A stretch of 21,245 nt of DNA, taken from a virus. The number at the start of each line of letters is the position of its first letter. The first letter of the stretch is position 1. Shown piece after piece: positions 1,902-15,741 of the stretch. The stretch covers positions 1 to 21,245 of IMG/VR virus record IMGVR_UViG_3300032092_000310; one strand, 5' to 3'. The notes under the pieces are model-generated. The model was not told the DNA's origin. It saw nothing but the letters and a program-made list of their open reading frames with translations, and ran no database searches. The position numbers were made by a program, and so were the translations under genes.

Positions 1902-2234
1902 GTGCCCACGCGAATCCCCACGCATCGACCGCCGCGTCTACGCTCCGCGAGTGTGGAGCATCGACCGAATGCGTACCAGCGTGGATACACCGACAAGCGA
2001 CATACCGCGTGGCGGCTCGCGGTGCTGACCCGCGACGCGTGGCAGTGCAGAGCGTGCGGCACAGTGTGCAGCGACAAGGGGCAAGCCCACGCGGACCATG
2101 TGAGCCCGGTCGTGCATGGCACCGATAGGTGCCAGGATGGACGAAGCCGGTATGACGTTGAAGGCGGGCAGTGTCTTTGCCAGGCGTGCCACAACACCAA
2201 AACGGCAAGGGAAAGCGGTCGCGGAAGGGCCTGA
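1902..2234 (+). CDS. HNH endonuclease (terminase-associated type)
   Basis: This is a 110-aa HNH nuclease. Residues about 37-52 read WRLAVLTRDAWQCRAC, giving the first zinc pair C49-x2-C52. The HNH core is AHADHVSPV (D65, H66), and the second zinc pair is C93-x2-C96 in CQACHNTKT with H97. This is the classic beta-beta-alpha metal finger. Small HNH proteins beside terminase genes are known to cooperate with the terminase in DNA maturation of cos-type, HK97-like phages. This one is separated from the small terminase gene by a second HNH gene. The start GTG 1902 has no clear Shine-Dalgarno; GTG 1953 is an alternative that keeps the whole catalytic domain. It may be a packaging nuclease or an independent homing nuclease. 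Confidence 0.85.
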   Translation: MPTRIPTHRPPRLRSASVEHRPNAYQRGYTDKRHTAWRLAVLTRDAWQCRACGTVCSDKGQAHADHVSPVVHGTDRCQDGRSRYDVEGGQCLCQACHNTKTARESGRGRA

Positions 2235-2248
2235 ACTTTGGTACACTG

Positions 2249-2269
2249 TGCCACCCGAAGGAGGTGGCA
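2249..2269 (+). promoter_or_regulatory. Stem-loop around the ribosome binding site of the second HNH gene
   Basis: TGCCACC (2249-2255) is the perfect reverse complement of GGTGGCA (2263-2269), with a 7-base loop at 2256-2262. The strong Shine-Dalgarno AAGGAGG (2258-2264) lies mostly in the loop and partly in the 3' arm, directly before the ATG at 2270. The structure could modulate initiation. It also fixes the start of the downstream gene, because no other start in that frame has such a binding site. Confidence 0.45.
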
Positions 2270-3250
2270 ATGGCGTGCCTGCGATGCGGTTCAGGATGGA
2301 CCACAAGAAAGGGCAAGGACATGGTTTCCTGCCCAGAGTGCTGCAAGCAACAGCGGTGCAAGGCTCGAAAGCAAGGGCGACTGCCGACGAGCGAAATCAA
2401 GACGTGCGAACGATGCGGGCAGCAGTTCGATGCCGTTGGTGGGAACGCGATTCTGCTATCGCGGCACTGTGCGACATGCAAGCCACTTGCTCGGTCTGAG
2501 TATCTTGCAAAGCGCAAGGCGGAAATTGCCACAGGACAGCGGAACGTCAAGCCGCAGAACAAGCGGCCGGCCCGTGAATGCGTGAGATGCGGCAAGAAAC
2601 TCAAAAAGGACCAGAGCAAGTTCTGCGGAAATGAGTGTTTCGCAGAAGCCCGCAAGGATGGCAGTCAACCATGGGATCGCACGAATCAGCTCGAGTCTGT
2701 GTGGCACCGTGGCGGATTGTGGGCGTCGGCCCCATCACGCAAGCCTGTGCGAGAGATCCTGACCAGCTTCCAGTCATTCATGCGAAGTCTCAATCGCATG
2801 TACCGAAAGGCGACCGAGTCGCTGCGGCCATGTAAGGTGTGTGGCTGTCCGTGCGGCAAGAGGCTTTGCTCTGATGAGTGCCGGCAGGCTAACGCTGACA
2901 AGGCTGCGGCGAATGAGCGTGCTGCAAGAAAGCGGTACAGGAAGACCGCAGGCAAGCACTTCAAGCAAAGGGCCAAGCGGTATGGCGTTGAATACGTGAG
3001 GTTCCCAAAGACGCTGGTCTTTGAACGCGATAACTACATCTGCCAGTTATGCAAGACTCCTGTGCTGGAGGCTGCTAGGTATCGCAAGAGTGATGGCAAG
3101 ATACATATGAAGTCTCCGACCATTGACCACATCATTCCCATGAGCAAGGGTGGACCGCACACGCCAGACAACTGCCAGACCGCGTGCTTCGGCTGCAACT
3201 CCAAGAAAGGCAGTCGCAGGATAGGACAGCTTCGGCTGGCTTTGCGGTAG
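2270..3250 (+). CDS. Zinc-finger-rich HNH homing endonuclease
   Basis: The start ATG 2270 is chosen for its strong Shine-Dalgarno; an upstream in-frame start at 2171 would run through the previous gene. The 326-aa protein carries a series of Cys pairs: C3/C6 with C21/C24, C46/C49 with C67/C70, C104/C107 with C119/C123, and a cluster at 188-204. The C-terminal part holds the nuclease: C258-x2-C261, the catalytic TIDHIIPMSKGG (D286, H287), N301, and C306-x2-C309 followed by NSKKG. This is the layout of a mobile HNH endonuclease with DNA-binding zinc ribbons. The base composition is visibly lower in GC than the packaging genes, which fits lateral arrival. It sits just before the terminase genes, a frequent insertion place. 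It is either a free-standing homing endonuclease or a diverged partner of the terminase; I prefer the first. Confidence 0.8.
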   Translation: MACLRCGSGWTTRKGKDMVSCPECCKQQRCKARKQGRLPTSEIKTCERCGQQFDAVGGNAILLSRHCATCKPLARSEYLAKRKAEIATGQRNVKPQNKRPARECVRCGKKLKKDQSKFCGNECFAEARKDGSQPWDRTNQLESVWHRGGLWASAPSRKPVREILTSFQSFMRSLNRMYRKATESLRPCKVCGCPCGKRLCSDECRQANADKAAANERAARKRYRKTAGKHFKQRAKRYGVEYVRFPKTLVFERDNYICQLCKTPVLEAARYRKSDGKIHMKSPTIDHIIPMSKGGPHTPDNCQTACFGCNSKKGSRRIGQLRLALR

Positions 3251-3823: not shown

Positions 3824-5336
3824 TTGCCCCGGATGCCTTGCCATCCGGTTCTTCGAAAAGCATTTGACCCACGTAAAGGGTCCGCTTGGTGGAAAGCCGC
3901 TGCTGTTGCAGTCGTGGCAAAAGTCGTGGCTGCACTCGCTCTATGGGACGCTTCGTGCTGACGGCCGGCGGCAGTATCGGACTACCTTGCTTGCGATTCC
4001 TCGCGGCAACGCCAAAAGCACGACCGCTGCCGGGATTGCGTTGAAGGGGCTCATGGAAAATGAGCCCGGCGGCGAGAACTATTCGTGCGCTGCCGACCGT
4101 GACCAGGCTAGGCTTGTCTGGGAAATCGCGAGCGGAATGGTGCAGCAGTCGCCGTTCCTAAGTCGGCACTTGAAGCTCTACCGAAACGCGATTGTGAGGC
4201 CGGCGACGCACAGTTCCTACAAGGCTTTGTCTGCCGAGGCGTTCACGAAGCACGGGTTGAATCCGCACGTTGTGGTGTTCGACGAATTGCACGCCCAAAA
4301 GAACCGCGAGCTTCACGACGTGATGGCGACCGCAATGGGCAAGCGGGCTCAGCCAATCATGGCGTACTTAACGACGGCGGGCTTTGATCGCCGGTCGGTG
4401 TGCTGGGAGGTGTGGAAGTACGCTGAGTCGGTTGCGGCCGGGGCCGTGAAAGACGAGACATTCTTGCCTGCCGTATACGCCGCTCCAGTCGACGCCGATT
4501 GGAAGGACGAAAAGGTGTGGGCGGTTGCCAACCCGAATCTAGGCGTATCGGTCAGCGTGGATTTCCTGCGGCAAGAGTGCCAAAAGGCAACGGAACTTCC
4601 GGCCTACGAAAACACCTTTCGGCAGCTCTACCTCAACCAGTGGACGGAGCAGGACACCCGCTGGCTCCGTATGGACGCCTGGGCTCGCGGTGGGCAGGCA
4701 TGCCCGGTGACGCTCCAAGGGCGGGAGTGCTGGGCGGGTCTCGACCTGGCGACCACGTTCGACACGACGGCGTTTGTGCTGGTGTTTCCGCTCGAGGATG
4801 GGCGGTACTGGGTGGAGCCGCATTTCTGGATTCCCGAGGAGAACATGCGGGAGCGGGTGCGGCGGGACAAGGTGCCGTATGACGTTTGGGCACGGCAGGA
4901 GCACTTGCATCTGACGCCCGGCAACGTGACCGACTTCGACCAAGTGCGGGCCGACATCAACACGCTGGCGAAGAAATACAACATCCGGCAGGTGGGAATC
5001 GACCGCTGGAATGCGACCCAGTTGGCGAATCAACTGCAAGGGGACGGGGTCAACGTCTTAGGCTACGGACAGGGCTACGGCTCCATGAGCGGGCCCGCGA
5101 AGGTGCTCGAATCGCTGGTCGTTTCGGAAAAGCTGCTGCATGGCGGGCATCCGGTGCTCGCGTGGCAGGCCGGAAACGTGGCGATTCAGCAGGACCACAA
5201 CGGCAACATCAAGCCCAGTAAGGCGAAGAGCAACGAACGCATTGACGGCATTGTTGCCCTTGTCATGGCTCTTGGCGTCCATGCGTCGCAAGAGGTGAAA
5301 GGGCCGGCAATCGAGCCCTCCATCCTCATCCTATGA
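3780..5336 (+). CDS. terL: Terminase large subunit
   Basis: This 518-aa protein is the packaging motor and nuclease. The ATPase part has LQSWQKSW (adenine-motif region, 43-50), a Walker A variant IPRGNAKST (about 73-81), Walker B VVVFDE (164-169) and the coupling motif LTTAG (197-201). The C-terminal RNase-H-like nuclease shows three acidic motifs: GLDLAT (D322), VGIDRW (D408) and ERIDG (D489). Length and order match the HK97/P27-partner terminase family. The N-terminus has an extra C12, C16, C19 cluster of unknown meaning. It overlaps terS by 44 bases and ends with an ATGA overlap with the portal gene. Confidence 0.95.
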   Translation: MPRKKTKKTDACSGDCPGCLAIRFFEKHLTHVKGPLGGKPLLLQSWQKSWLHSLYGTLRADGRRQYRTTLLAIPRGNAKSTTAAGIALKGLMENEPGGENYSCAADRDQARLVWEIASGMVQQSPFLSRHLKLYRNAIVRPATHSSYKALSAEAFTKHGLNPHVVVFDELHAQKNRELHDVMATAMGKRAQPIMAYLTTAGFDRRSVCWEVWKYAESVAAGAVKDETFLPAVYAAPVDADWKDEKVWAVANPNLGVSVSVDFLRQECQKATELPAYENTFRQLYLNQWTEQDTRWLRMDAWARGGQACPVTLQGRECWAGLDLATTFDTTAFVLVFPLEDGRYWVEPHFWIPEENMRERVRRDKVPYDVWARQEHLHLTPGNVTDFDQVRADINTLAKKYNIRQVGIDRWNATQLANQLQGDGVNVLGYGQGYGSMSGPAKVLESLVVSEKLLHGGHPVLAWQAGNVAIQQDHNGNIKPSKAKSNERIDGIVALVMALGVHASQEVKGPAIEPSILIL

Positions 5337-7576
5337 TTGCCCAAAACACCCGCATCCTGTGGCTCCCTGAAGGCGACGCCCGTAGCTGGGACTACGAATC
5401 CGGCGGCTGGGCCGGCGGCAACCGCAACCCGTCAGGCGTGCGGATTGACGCTGAGTCGGCTCTGCGTGCGACGGTCGTGCTCGCCTGCGTGCGGGTGCTA
5501 TCGGCGTCGGTCGCCGGGCTGCCGCTGCATCTCTACCGCAGGCTCGCGGGTGGTGGCAAGGAACTCGCCCGCGATGTGCCGCTCTATCGCGTGCTGCACA
5601 CGACCCCGAACGATTGGCAGACGAGCTATGAGTGGCGTGAAACGCTCATGCTGCACCTGCTCCTGCATGGCAACGCGTACTGCGAGATTCGCGGGGCAGG
5701 GGATTCGCGGCAGTTGATTCCGCTGCATCCCTCGCGGATGAAGGTCGACCGCCTGGAGAACGGGCGGCTGCGGTACACGTACCGCGAGGATCGGGGGTCG
5801 AGCACCGTCTACTCGCAGGATGCGGTTATGCACCTGAGGTGGCTTTCGGATGACGGCGTGAACGGGATGGTGCCTGTCGAGATTGCGGGCGACGCCATCG
5901 GGCTGGCTCGTGCCCTGGAGATTCACGGGGCGACGTTCTTCGGCTCGGGTGCTCGCCCCGGCGTCATCCTCTCGACCGACCAGATGCTATCGCCCGAGGC
6001 GGCGGAGAACACGCGGAACCAGTGGGAGCGAGCCCATCGCGGCCCCGACAGGGCTCACCGCACGGCGGTGCTCCAGGGCGGGCTCAAGGTCAATGAGCTC
6101 GGCGGCAACAACCAAGAGAGCCAGTTCCTTGAGACGCGGCGATTCCAAGTCGAAGAGATTTGCGGACGCATCTACGGGGTGCCGCCTCACCTCATTGGCG
6201 ACCTGTCGCGTTCGTCGTTCTCGAATATCGAACAGCAGAGCCTCGACTACGTGCAGAACGGCTTGATGCCCTGGCTGCGGCGGTTTGAGTCGGCCATCAC
6301 CCGCGACCTGCTCACCGATGATGAGACGTTCGCGGAGTTCGACGTGCGCGGTGCCTTGCGTGCGGACGCTGCGGGGCGGTCGGCGTTCTATACCTCGATG
6401 GCCCAACTGGGCGTGTTCAGCGTCAACGAGATAAGAGGGCTGGAAAATCTGAACCCGGTCGAGGGCGGTGACATTCGCGTCGTGCCGCTGAACTTCCAAA
6501 CGCTTGAGCAGGCGAACGCGGCGGCGCAGTTGGCGATGGCCCCGGCTGTCGAGGAAATCGTCACGGTTGACGAGACGCCAGCGGAGCCGGCTGCCGATGC
6601 GGCGGCTGGGGCAGCGACGCCGGATGAGCCCCAGGTGGCGGACGTGTCGCTCAATGGTGCTCAAATCACGGGGCTGCTCGCAATCCTGCAGGCTGTTAGC
6701 ACAGGCGTCCTCACGCGGACCGGTGCCGCTGCTGCGATTGCGGCAGCCTTCCCGGCCATGCCGAAGCCGCAGATTGACGCGATTCTCGCGGGCGTGCCCG
6801 AAAACACGGCCCCGGCGGTGCCTGCGGAACCGGCCGCGCCCCCGGCGTTCGGTCGTTCGCTCCCGGCGTCACGGGCGATGACCGTCTCAATTGACTTCGA
6901 CCGGACGTTCGCCGCCGACCCTGCCCTGTGGGGCGAGTTCGCACGCAAGGCGGTTGCGGACGGGAACACGGTCGTGATGGTCAGCCGTCGGCCTGACACC
7001 GCCGACAACCGGCAGACCGTCACCGACACGCTGGGCGACTACGCCGATGCGTTTTCGCAGGTGTTGCTCGTGGGCGAGCGGCTGAAGGACGAAGCCGCGA
7101 AAGAGGCTGGCGTCGAGGTGGACGTGTGGGTGGACGATTCGCCGCAGACGGTCAAGCCGCCGATGGATTGCGGGTGTGACGAGCACCGCAACTGCGGCAC
7201 CGGCAGCGGCGGATTCTCTTCAGGAAACACCTGCGGAAAGGGTGGCGGCGGCGGTGGTGGTGGCGGTTCGTCTGATGGTGGTTCATCGGGAGGCGGCTCG
7301 TCGGGTGGCGATGGTGCGGGAAGTGGCTCCGGCCCAGGCGGGCTAAAGCAGCCGTCGAAGAAACACGACGTGAAACTCCCGAAGTCAAAGAAGCGGTTGA
7401 CCATCGACCAAGGAAACGAGGCGATGAAGCAGCTTGGCTACAAGGTCGGAAAGACCTCGACGAAGAAGGTAGGTAAAGGGTGGGTCACGGTCGTGAGTGT
7501 CACTGACAGCACTGGGCACACGGCGACGCTGACGGCGGATGAAGTCAAAGACATCGTTTATGGGAATCAGAAATAG
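5333..7576 (+). CDS. Portal protein with C-terminal HAD-like domain fusion
   Basis: Residues about 1-400 are an HK97-type portal: RATVVLACVRVLSASVAGLP, NDWQTSYEWRETLM, HGNAYCEIR, the NNQESQFLETRRF segment and IYGVPPHLIGD. It forms the dodecameric DNA channel at the head vertex. The family usually ends near 400-450 residues; this protein has 747. After an Ala/Pro linker and a helical stretch (445-488), residues 516-607 resemble a HAD phosphatase: IDFDRT (D521, D523, T525), VVMVSRR (S551) and VWVDDSP (D601, D602). Then comes a Cys/Gly segment (C613, C615, C621, C634, with GTGSGGFSSGNTCGKGGG), a long Gly/Ser linker (about 637-670) and a basic C-terminal domain of about 75 residues of unknown fold. 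The HAD part begins with a Met (ATG 6878), but no Shine-Dalgarno supports a separate gene there. The ATG overlaps the terL stop. Confidence 0.9.
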   Translation: MIAQNTRILWLPEGDARSWDYESGGWAGGNRNPSGVRIDAESALRATVVLACVRVLSASVAGLPLHLYRRLAGGGKELARDVPLYRVLHTTPNDWQTSYEWRETLMLHLLLHGNAYCEIRGAGDSRQLIPLHPSRMKVDRLENGRLRYTYREDRGSSTVYSQDAVMHLRWLSDDGVNGMVPVEIAGDAIGLARALEIHGATFFGSGARPGVILSTDQMLSPEAAENTRNQWERAHRGPDRAHRTAVLQGGLKVNELGGNNQESQFLETRRFQVEEICGRIYGVPPHLIGDLSRSSFSNIEQQSLDYVQNGLMPWLRRFESAITRDLLTDDETFAEFDVRGALRADAAGRSAFYTSMAQLGVFSVNEIRGLENLNPVEGGDIRVVPLNFQTLEQANAAAQLAMAPAVEEIVTVDETPAEPAADAAAGAATPDEPQVADVSLNGAQITGLLAILQAVSTGVLTRTGAAAAIAAAFPAMPKPQIDAILAGVPENTAPAVPAEPAAPPAFGRSLPASRAMTVSIDFDRTFAADPALWGEFARKAVADGNTVVMVSRRPDTADNRQTVTDTLGDYADAFSQVLLVGERLKDEAAKEAGVEVDVWVDDSPQTVKPPMDCGCDEHRNCGTGSGGFSSGNTCGKGGGGGGGGGSSDGGSSGGGSSGGDGAGSGSGPGGLKQPSKKHDVKLPKSKKRLTIDQGNEAMKQLGYKVGKTSTKKVGKGWVTVVSVTDSTGHTATLTADEVKDIVYGNQK

Positions 7577-7578
7577 CG

Positions 7579-7857
7579 ATGGCGGCACGGTATGACCACA
7601 TCGACTTCACGCCCCCGGCTGGCGTCCGCGAGGAAGCGGCGAAGGGACTGGCGTGGCGTGACGAGCACGGACGTGGCGGCACGGCCGTAGGCGTGGCTCG
7701 CGCCCGCGACCTCTCCAATGGCACGAACATCTCCCCCGACACCGCCCGACGCATGGCGAGCTACTTTGCTCGTCACGAGGTGGACAAGCAAGGAAAGGGC
7801 TTCCGCCCAGGCGAGGACGGCTTTCCATCAGCCGGCCGCATCGCCTGGGCGCTTTAG
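7579..7857 (+). CDS. Small conserved phage protein ending at an in-frame TAG before the protease
   Basis: This 92-aa protein begins MAARYDHIDFTPPAGVREEA and contains GLAWRDEHGRGGTAVGVARA, a segment RRMASYFARHEVDKQGKGF, and GFPSAGRIAWAL. It is polar, has no membrane segment, and resembles a small domain found near phage head proteases and in some head proteins; I know no biochemical role. The remarkable point is its end: after GRIAWAL the TAG at 7855-7857 is followed in the same frame by LWGGDPGQAWANKLTKQM, which reads like the natural continuation of the family (as I recall it, IAWALWGGD-GQ-WANK). The same frame then runs on into the prohead protease. It may therefore be a truncated, recoded or readthrough form. 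It starts 2 bases after the portal stop without a clear Shine-Dalgarno. Confidence 0.75.
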   Translation: MAARYDHIDFTPPAGVREEAAKGLAWRDEHGRGGTAVGVARARDLSNGTNISPDTARRMASYFARHEVDKQGKGFRPGEDGFPSAGRIAWAL

Positions 7858-7938
7858 CTTTGGGGCGGAGACCCCGGCCAAGCGTGGGCCAACAAGCTGA
7901 CTAAACAGATGAACGCCGCAGACGAGGAGAACCGCAGC
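7858..7938 (+). other. In-frame continuation between the TAG and the protease start
   Basis: These 81 bases have no stop in the frame shared by the 92-aa protein and the protease. They encode LWGGDPGQAWANKLTKQM followed by NAADEENRS, which looks like a conserved C-terminal tail rather than spacer. The region also holds the Shine-Dalgarno GAGGAG (7924-7929), 9 bases before ATG 7939, the probable protease start. A further ATG at 7909 lacks such a site. Confidence 0.6.
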
Positions 7939-8592
7939 ATGGCAATCGAACGCCGTAGCCTCTACGAAGAAGAATCCGGCACGCTCCCCCTGCTCCGCAT
8001 CGAGAGCCGCAGCGAGGACGGCGCGGACGAGGCCCGATGGGTTGTCGGCTATGCCGCCAAGTTCGGCGTCAACAGCCTCGACCTCGGCGATTTCCAAGAG
8101 CGGATTGACCCCGGTGCCTTCGGCATCGTCGCGGAGCGGCGTGGCCGCAAGAAGCCGCTGGAGACGCGAGCGTTGTGGAACCACGACGCCAACTTCCCGC
8201 TCGCCCGCTATCCCGGCACGCTGCGAATGAACGTGGACGAAATCGGGCTGCGGTATGAGTTCCCGGTGCCCGACACGTCCTACGGGCGCGACCTGGCGGC
8301 GAACATCGAGGCTGGCATCGTGCGGGGTTCGTCGTTCTCGTTCCAGATTGCCCCCGGCGGTGAGTCGTGGAGCGTGGAAGACGGCCGCAGCATCCGCACC
8401 GTGACGAAGATCGACAGCCTCATCGACGTGGGACCGGTGACGTTCCCGGCGTATCCCGATGCGGACGTGACCGTGGCGAAGCGGTCGTTCGATGCGTTCC
8501 GCCAGCAGCGAGACGCCGAGAACGTGCGGCGTGCGACGGCACTGGCAAAGACTCTGAAACTCCGCGAGTATCTGGCGCAGCATGGCCGCTAG
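7939..8592 (+). CDS. HK97-type prohead protease
   Basis: ATG 7939 is preferred over ATG 7909 because of GAGGAG at 7924-7929. The 217-aa enzyme shows family hallmarks: VVGYAAKFGV and DFQERIDPGAF near the N-terminus, the catalytic His in ALWNHDANFPLAR (H82), EIGLRYEFPVPD, the catalytic Ser in IVRGSSFSF (S131 or S132), and IDVGPVTFPAYPDADV. It belongs to the herpesvirus-assemblin-like fold serine peptidases (U35/S78), which digest the scaffold or delta domain of the capsid protein during head maturation. A helical C-terminal tail follows. The upstream frame is open back to a TAG at 7855, so a readthrough fusion with the 92-aa protein is possible. It overlaps the zinc-ribbon gene by 11 bases. Confidence 0.92.
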   Translation: MAIERRSLYEEESGTLPLLRIESRSEDGADEARWVVGYAAKFGVNSLDLGDFQERIDPGAFGIVAERRGRKKPLETRALWNHDANFPLARYPGTLRMNVDEIGLRYEFPVPDTSYGRDLAANIEAGIVRGSSFSFQIAPGGESWSVEDGRSIRTVTKIDSLIDVGPVTFPAYPDADVTVAKRSFDAFRQQRDAENVRRATALAKTLKLREYLAQHGR

Positions 8593-10701: not shown

Positions 10702-10745
10702 ATGGCGGGTGCGGCACAACGTCGCGCCCGCCATTTCTGTTTTCG
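10702..10745 (+). terminator. Strong intrinsic terminator after the capsid genes
   Basis: ATGGCGGGTGCG (10702-10713) pairs with CGCGCCCGCCAT (10723-10734) as a 12-bp stem with one G-U pair and a 9-base loop. The U-rich tract TTTCTGTTTT (10734-10743) follows at once. This is the clearest terminator in the window. It would separate the abundant capsid transcript from the genes beyond, probably by partial termination because the next genes need the same late transcription. Confidence 0.85.
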
Positions 10746-10755
10746 TGAGGCAGGC

Positions 10756-11487
10756 ATGATTGTCAAAGTCGGCGGCACGGATGTAGACGTTCGCATCGAG
10801 TGCATTATGAGCGGGCCGCGCTTCGGCCCACTGAGCAACGTCTTCGGATGGGCACAAGCCCTGATGCCTCTCGGCATCCGCCCGACGCTCGGGCAGGGTG
10901 CCCTCTGGGGGCAGGTGTTGCAGCGGTGCATGGAGCAATTCGCCGACTCCACCGAATACCTGCTCTGCACCGACATGGACTCGTTCTGGGACCGCAAGAC
11001 GGTCGAGGAACTGGTCGCCATGGCGATGGCGTTTCAGTGCGACGCCATGGCCCCGCTGCAGGTGAAGCGGGAGGACGGCCGCCCGATGTTCACGCTCAAG
11101 GGCACGCTCGACAATCCGCCCAGCGGCCCGACTGACCTGCCGATGTCGTGGTTCGCCGAGCCCGTGCAGGAGGTGGACAGTGCTCACTTCGGCTGCACAC
11201 TCATCAGCACGAAGGCTCTGAAGCGAACGCCGAAACCCTGGTTCCAAGACCAGCCCAATGACAAGGGCGAGTACGGCGACGGGCGAACCGACGCCGACAT
11301 TTGGTTCTGGAAGCAGTTCCGCAAGGCTGGGAACCGCGTCTACGTCTCGCCCCGCGTCAGTATCGGCCACGGCGAATGGGTCTCAGTCTGGCCGGGCAAG
11401 GATCTGCAAAAGCCCGTATTCCAGTACGTGTCGGATTACACGGCGAACGGTAAGCCCAAGACTGCATGGAGTGTGCCCCAATCATGA
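10756..11487 (+). CDS. Glycosyltransferase-like protein (GT-A type)
   Basis: The ATG at 10756 follows the terminator, with GAGG at 10747-10750; the in-frame ATG at 10702 lies inside the terminator stem and is rejected. The 243-aa protein has features of GT-A glycosyltransferases: PLGIRPTLGQGALWGQV, YLLCTDMDSFW with a DxD-like D73-x-D75 for metal and nucleotide-sugar binding, a DADIWFWKQFRKAG segment (D179, D181) and YVSPRVSIGHGE (H205). The last part resembles the C-terminal 'yvsp-v-igH-g' motif of family-2-like enzymes. It presumably transfers sugar to a virion or host molecule. Its location between capsid and connector genes is unusual. Donor and acceptor are unknown. Confidence 0.6.
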   Translation: MIVKVGGTDVDVRIECIMSGPRFGPLSNVFGWAQALMPLGIRPTLGQGALWGQVLQRCMEQFADSTEYLLCTDMDSFWDRKTVEELVAMAMAFQCDAMAPLQVKREDGRPMFTLKGTLDNPPSGPTDLPMSWFAEPVQEVDSAHFGCTLISTKALKRTPKPWFQDQPNDKGEYGDGRTDADIWFWKQFRKAGNRVYVSPRVSIGHGEWVSVWPGKDLQKPVFQYVSDYTANGKPKTAWSVPQS

Positions 11488-15067: not shown

Positions 15068-15412
15068 ATGGCACTGACGGCAGAGCAGATCCTCGCGGCG
15101 GACGATATGGGGCTCAAGAAGGTCACGGTCCCCGAGTGGGGCGGTGACGTTCACGTCCGCGTAATGAGCGTCGGCGAGCGGGACAACTACGAGCGGCTGT
15201 GGATGGGCAAGCGTGAGACGGGCGTGGAGAACTTCCGCACCGAGTATCTGGCCCGCGTCCTGTGCGACGAGAAGGGCGACCTGCTCTTTTCGCGTGAGCA
15301 GGTGGCCGCGTTGGCGAAGAAGTCGGGGGCGGTGATGGGTCGCCTGTTCGACGAAGCGATGAAGCACAACCGGATGACCGAGGAGGATGTTGAGCAACTG
15401 GGAAAATCTTGA
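15068..15412 (+). CDS. Tail assembly chaperone (lambda G-like)
   Basis: ATG 15068 has AGGAG at 15055-15059. The 114-aa protein starts MALTAEQILAADDMGLKKVT and continues VPEWGGDVHVRVMSVGERDN, a segment RTEYLARVLCDEKGDLLFS, and a C-terminal MTEEDVEQLGKS. The pattern 'lta--iL---d---k-v-VPEWGG-v-vr-ms--er' is typical of tail chaperones that help the tape measure protein fold before the tube forms. The last codons contain a frameshift heptamer (15400-15406) that would fuse it to the next frame, as for lambda G and GT. Confidence 0.85.
   Translation: MALTAEQILAADDMGLKKVTVPEWGGDVHVRVMSVGERDNYERLWMGKRETGVENFRTEYLARVLCDEKGDLLFSREQVAALAKKSGAVMGRLFDEAMKHNRMTEEDVEQLGKS
15400..15406 (+). promoter_or_regulatory. 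Programmed -1 ribosomal frameshift site (GGGAAAA)
   Basis: In the frame of the chaperone gene the codons are CTG GGA AAA TCT TGA, so the heptamer is G GGA AAA, an exact X XXY YYZ slippery site two codons before the stop. Slippage by -1 gives GGG AAA and continues ATC TTG AAC into the next frame. Lambda G/GT uses the sister site GGGAAAG. This placement at the G/T junction is the expected one. Confidence 0.85.
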
Positions 15413-15741
15413 ACGCGAGCCCGACGCGGCGGTTCATCGTCGCGTTGTCTCGTGAACTCAAGATGACCCAGGGTGAGTTGTGCCGCCGGATGACTTCGGC
15501 AGAGTTGTCGGAACACATCGCCTACACGCGGTGGTTCTCGGCTCTGCCGGATTCATGGCGGCAGACGGGATTGTTGGCAGCGGTGGCCCTGGCACCGCAC
15601 ACGGAGAAAGGCAAACGACCGAAGCCCGACGATTTCGTGCCGGTAGACAAGCCGCCGCAGCATGAATCGCAGGACATCGCCGCGTTGATGGAACTACGCA
15701 AAGCCTTCGGGCTTGGCGACCTGGAACTGCCCGATGGCTAA
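15406..15741 (+). CDS. Tail assembly chaperone extension (lambda T-like), made by -1 frameshift
   Basis: The frame opens only at 15394 and its first start-like codon is TTG 15409, so independent initiation is unlikely. It is best read as the C-terminal part of a frameshift fusion: joining bases 15068-15406 with 15406-15741 gives a 224-aa protein. The shifted part has SRELKMTQGELCRRMTSAEL, the segment EHIAYTRWFSALPDSWRQTG, and a Pro/Lys-rich tail. The 'M-t-aEL-e--aY-r---lPD' pattern is typical of GpT-type extensions, which bind the tape measure. Its last bases overlap the tape measure gene. Confidence 0.82.
   Translation: MLNASPTRRFIVALSRELKMTQGELCRRMTSAELSEHIAYTRWFSALPDSWRQTGLLAAVALAPHTEKGKRPKPDDFVPVDKPPQHESQDIAALMELRKAFGLGDLELPDG
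15412..15458 (+). promoter_or_regulatory. Stem and possible pseudoknot downstream of the frameshift site
   Basis: AACGCGA (15412-15418) is the exact reverse complement of TCGCGTT (15440-15446), starting 5 bases after the slippery heptamer, the usual spacing for a stimulator. In addition, GGTTCA in the loop (15431-15436) can pair with TGAACT (15453-15458, one G-U), which would make an H-type pseudoknot. A competing stem (CGACG 15422-15426 with CGTCG 15438-15442) exists, so the folded form is uncertain. Confidence 0.5.

Follow-up and report, generated by a model that had tools for sequence, protein, structure and literature searches.

The viral contig IMGVR_UViG_3300032092_000310, analysed over its full 21,245 nucleotides (the window), carries a portal gene whose product contains a HAD phosphatase domain. 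The gene is an open reading frame (ORF) on the plus strand, at 5333-7576, and encodes an HK97-type portal of 747 amino acids plus stop (PF04860 at residues 48-372, E 4e-105; TIGR01537, 2e-74; phrog_12). Its parts follow one another along the same strand. The portal core (residues 1-400, 5333-6532), bounded by family matches and by alignment across loci, leads into a Pro/Ala/Glu-rich linker (6533-6871) with a helical stretch (ITGLLAILQ...IDAILAGV) and, at its end, GRSLPAS. Then come the Arg514-Ala515 module boundary (6872-6877), a candidate protease site, and the capless HAD domain (Met516-Val607, 6878-7153). A Cys/Gly-rich linker (7154-7330) and a predicted C-terminal module (7331-7573) complete the protein.

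The HAD domain and its catalytic residues

Portal residues 514-607 (6872-7153) form a genuine HAD domain. An earlier note on this DNA had proposed as much from the motifs IDFDRT (D521, D523), VVMVSRR (S551) and VWVDDSP (D601, D602), all of which lie where it had placed them. Two PHROG profiles match the domain, phrog_4919 (8.9e-14) and phrog_4256 (1.9e-13), neither family having a known function. Pfam, NCBIfam and PADLOC searches assigned it to no family, and sequence searches of the PDB returned nothing meaningful. The hidden Markov model search that the note had suggested thus succeeds with PHROG and would miss the domain if limited to the HAD families of Pfam and NCBIfam. The first tblastn scan found 187 relatives. 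Together with the standalone structural matches and the invariant residues described below, these hits show that the motifs are not there by chance.

The AlphaFold (AF2) model of the domain, built from 24 fused relatives, has a mean predicted local distance difference test score (pLDDT) of 93 and a predicted template modelling score (pTM) of 0.83. Its topology, E-H-H-E-H-E-H-E, is the Rossmannoid HAD core that the note had expected of a structure prediction, with no cap insert. HAD structures occupy most of the top ranks in a VIA comparison with solved structures, and the best match is the phosphatase domain of T4 Pnkp (Z 9.9, root mean square deviation 2.8, 93 aligned, 18% identity). The top seven rows are Pnkp; T4 Pnkp entries score Z 9.3-9.9, followed by bacterial Pnkp1 at 8.9 and MDP-1 at 8.5. 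The alignment covers the C-terminal phosphatase domain of T4 Pnkp (residues 158-284), and with model residue 1 at Pnkp residue 158, D521/D523 coincide with the D165/D167 motif. Foldseek against BFVD retrieved standalone phage HADs (best E 1.2e-6), predicted nucleotidases and, more weakly (about E 1e-3), proteins named XkdF or head maturation protease.

We aligned seven fused and eight standalone copies (15 rows, 24-28% identity between groups) and found D521, D523, T525, R553, K585, D601 and D602 invariant (D8, D10, T12, R40, K72, D88 and D89 in alignment numbering). HAD motif I, DxDx[TV], is present as DFDRT, K585 is the motif III lysine and D601-D602 the acidic pair of motif IV. Position 551, which follows the strand in motif II, holds Ser where the domain is fused and Thr where it stands alone; R553, considered as a possible residue for 3'-phosphate recognition, occupies the SxR of motif II. 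The note was therefore correct on motifs I, II and IV and overlooked K585 and R553, while the conservation of D521 and D523, on which it had staked its reading, holds in both groups. The domain is under purifying selection, with a median pairwise ratio of nonsynonymous to synonymous substitution rates (dN/dS) of 0.20. Because the catalytic set is conserved, the fold is intact and dN/dS is 0.20, we take the enzyme to be intact and probably active.

The known proteins closest to the portal domain differ from it in context. The C-terminal 3'-phosphatase of T4 polynucleotide kinase/phosphatase (PDB 1rrc, 5uj0) has the same capless HAD fold with motif I in register, whereas the portal HAD has no kinase domain, is only 18% identical, is fused to a portal and may differ in substrate. 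The small phage HADs of phrog_4919 and phrog_4256 (for example Kuravirus SU10_045) are homologous and have the same invariant residues, but they are standalone; the SU10 copy is surrounded by small genes, with the DNA polymerase a few genes away, and does not sit on a head protein. The HAD-like regions of XkdF or head maturation proteases from BFVD (for example Lactobacillus phage LJ) sit on a different head protein, the likeness there coming from the structural match only.

An exchangeable module in the portal C-tail

The HAD domain lies within the portal ORF in 164 loci, which comprise 93 distinct portal cores and 70 distinct HAD domains; these are loci rather than viruses, some contigs being present under more than one locus id. 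A chimera was considered and rejected, the same single ORF recurring across these loci from many metagenomes; the joining of portal and HAD did not arise from misassembly. Also rejected was an internal start at ATG 6878, which encodes Met516. Among the 70 distinct fused domains the Met516 column holds Met in 46 and Leu in 21, with Leu or Val replacing Met in 24 in all, and no Shine-Dalgarno sequence is evident upstream of 6878; together these leave an internal start unsupported. No promoter-like site was found near this ATG.

Starting a scan from the portal core rather than from the HAD domain gives a less biased view of what these tails carry. Pattern-based scoring of 80 loci placed HAD, alone or with TUDOR, in 40 and TUDOR without HAD in 34; three complete tails had neither, one of them (L086) with a divergent TUDOR-like stretch, and three tails were incomplete. 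Complete portals without HAD, 36 in number, bear TUDOR, ART-PolyVal or zincin-like modules. Pfam names the TUDOR module Hva1_TUDOR (PF11160, 6e-7) and recognises ART-PolyVal in place of HAD in the L102 portal tail (2.9e-15). The L084 tail contains HEMGHH and a sub-threshold match (0.0063) to the anthrax lethal factor fold family, for which reason we name its module no further than zincin-like. HAD and TUDOR can stack in one tail. A further C-tail module, the glycine-linker module, occurs on prohead proteases as well.

A quick portal tree of 101 rows calls for at least 20 changes in the presence of HAD and 17 in that of TUDOR, and 68 pairs of portals more than 98.5% identical differ in whether they have HAD. 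HAD identity is weakly correlated with portal identity (Spearman 0.12, 2556 pairs), and between two deep portal clades the HADs are 80% identical while the portals are 54% identical; movement of the module is thus not tied to the portal that carries it. In L084, a contig of a Phycisphaerales metagenome-assembled genome (MAG), HAD is a separate overlapping gene directly after the portal. Its start lies inside the portal stop (ATGA) and it retains the leader ARSLPEARA, the contig being masked partway through the gene. This is the standalone homologue beside a portal that the earlier note had advised looking for. The same note had envisaged one fusion between an upstream gene and a separate HAD gene, joined at Met516. 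Instead, the portal C-tail takes several exchangeable modules, HAD among them, and the true junction is an Arg-Ala/Ser boundary, which is seen again ahead of several modules of unrelated kinds.

Enzymes on head proteins have precedents, contrary to the note's statement that portals normally lack any enzyme part. According to PMC5512222 and PMC9503650 (Iyer 2017 and 2022), MuF proteins, portals or proteases are fused to PBECR, 2H, Nudix or ART domains that are thought to be packaged and injected, and there too the enzyme domain stands at the C-terminus of the head or portal protein. Here, by contrast, the exchange of modules takes place inside a single portal clade, and modules may be stacked (HAD with TUDOR). 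No HAD-portal fusion was found in the available text of either paper, and the open-licence PMC literature yielded no report of such a fusion or of cassette behaviour, an absence that is weak evidence. While effector fusions to head proteins are already known, the HAD-portal fusion and the exchange of cassettes are apparently unreported. Here an essential structural protein of a single vertex carries enzymes that can be exchanged, and comparison of nearly identical portals makes this exchange visible.

Two genomes only match the HAD domain, both of them Planctomycetota MAGs, and one of these is the single genome with the domain among 392 sampled from that phylum. We tentatively assign the host to Planctomycetota.

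Module boundaries and possible role

Arg-Ala or Arg-Ser directly precedes HAD in 25 of 25 distinct contexts, TUDOR begins after Arg-Ala in 29 of 29, and the Cys/Gly linker begins after Arg in all six tails compared, which include portals and prohead proteases. A conserved E[SKNT]R marks the place where the N-terminal region (delta) of the capsid protein meets the core. In HK97, the capsid protein is cleaved at K103/S104 (PMC10275583). Judging from these motifs, the Arg boundary of the modules and that of the capsid protein could be a common prohead-protease site, and Arg514-Ala515 is the candidate position in this portal. The crown and wing domains of portals are located within the procapsid (PMC11445458), and the C-tail in this virus may well reach the lumen.

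The Cys/Gly-rich linker, which reads DEHR and then NCGTGSGGFSSGNTCGKGGGG..., is a recurring cassette linker also present in portals L137, L102 and L084 and in the prohead proteases L241-L243. The predicted module that follows it (KHDVKLPK...LTIDQ...KDIVYGNQK) has relatives on portal L137 and on the same three proteases; in these other viruses it forms, together with the CGTGSGGF linker, the C-end of the prohead protease. Pfam and PHROG searches gave no match for this module.

We put at slightly better than even the chance that this complete, probably active capless (C0) HAD phosphatase is a portal-tail cassette that is released by protease, delivered with the DNA and active on phosphomonoesters, most likely nucleic-acid 3' ends. 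The portal C-tail would most likely be directed into the head, and during head maturation the prohead protease of this virus (7909-8592) would probably cut the Arg-Ala boundary, so that up to 12 copies of the HAD module could be freed into the packaged head. Entering the cell together with the DNA, it would hydrolyse phosphomonoesters, most likely those at nucleic-acid 3' ends as the T4 Pnkp phosphatase domain does, and would thereby counter host damage or defence early in infection. Our best guess of a 3'-phosphate substrate derives from the Pnkp fold match and from an active site that is open and has no cap; a target among phosphoproteins or nucleotides is almost as probable.

Several points weigh against this proposal. 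Foldseek found no match in the PDB at E <= 0.001, leaving the VIA comparison and the motifs as the basis for assigning T4 Pnkp; VIA Z scores of 7-10 can mirror a common arrangement, and the structural match speaks to fold, not to substrate. No kinase family was detected in the 747-residue portal ORF (Pfam, PHROG, NCBIfam), and the 21 kb window revealed no kinase or ligase that could act as its partner, which leaves a T4-style repair pathway unsupported here. Likeness between junction motifs does not prove cleavage, since the R-A motif may just travel with each module, and the mechanism as a whole is built on computation rather than experiment.

Among the alternatives, the strongest, still an unlikely one, is a delivered phosphatase with a different target, such as phosphoproteins, nucleotides or host-defence signalling molecules. 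HADs without a cap can as a rule take large substrates; MDP-1, for which a phosphotyrosine phosphatase role has been proposed, likewise resembles the fold closely (Z 8.5); and predicted nucleotidases are among the BFVD matches. T4 Pnkp and bacterial Pnkp1 outrank MDP-1, but the difference is only about 1 Z unit, which makes such a target hardly weaker than the favoured 3' ends. Slightly less probable is a HAD that stays on the portal and works in the virion or in packaging, processing DNA ends or interacting with the packaged DNA and never reaching the host. A DNA/RNA 3'-phosphatase as the nearest fold would suit that role. However, portals more than 98.5% identical manage without HAD, so packaging has no need of it, and swapping with ART and zincin-like modules is better suited to effectors.

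A catalytically dead domain, kept as a structural or binding module of the portal tail, has a parallel in head-protein fusions that are inactive, such as the PBECR domain of phage Mu MuF (PMC5512222). The HAD catalytic residues nevertheless do not vary among 24 diverse fused copies or in distantly related enzymes that stand alone, and we consider this explanation very improbable. That the window is an uncultured-virus contig could invite the suspicion of a chimeric assembly or annotation artefact; the independent contigs, from many metagenomes, refute it and make its probability negligible.

Should the modules be released and injected, as in the reading that we prefer, unknown anti-host enzymes could be sought in portal tails, and the conserved Arg junction would offer a simple rule, open to testing, for recognising them. 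A wider and more doubtful possibility is that the lumenal tails of portals and prohead proteases in this clade act as a modular cargo bay. HAD, ART, zincin-like, TUDOR and other cassettes with a common Arg boundary would be swapped among viruses, freed by the protease and injected with the genome as changeable effectors of the first minute.

The stop codon downstream of the portal and other features

Right after the portal, an ORF of 92 amino acids (7579-7857) and the prohead protease gene stand in the same frame, with an in-frame stop between them. About 104 relatives have an uninterrupted frame at this point (..IAWALWGGDPGQ..), and in 18 sequences, including the window (7852-7860), six extra bases create CTT-TAG-CTT, CTT-TAG-CTA or CTT-TAA-CTA. 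Over the 16 codons past the stop, nine haplotypes have 8, 5 and 14 variable sites at the first, second and third codon positions, respectively. This third-position bias fits continued translation, and recombination with unsplit relatives could also explain it. If peptidyl-tRNA-Leu hopped across the stop, the product would be exactly the fused protein, making this a candidate natural stop hop; the plain alternatives are readthrough, or normal termination followed by reinitiation at ATG 7909. In-frame stop hopping has been shown with synthetic constructs, and of natural cases a 2016 review states that "no occurences are known" (PMC5009743). The CTT-TAG-CTT candidate may outweigh the HAD finding in importance.

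A candidate -1 frameshift lies at 15400-15406, where GGGAAAA, correctly phased as G GGA AAA, stands shortly ahead of the stop codon of ORF 15068-15412. The next ORF, 15409-15741, is in the -1 frame relative to it, and the two may encode the pair of tail assembly chaperones, with the tape measure gene lying downstream. Between the capsid and connector genes, an ORF of 261 amino acids (10702-11484) appears by eye to be glycosyltransferase-like, with no Pfam match and a weak one to phrog_1574. Two overlapping HNH-type ORFs (1902-2234 and 2171-3250) lie just upstream of the terminase genes.
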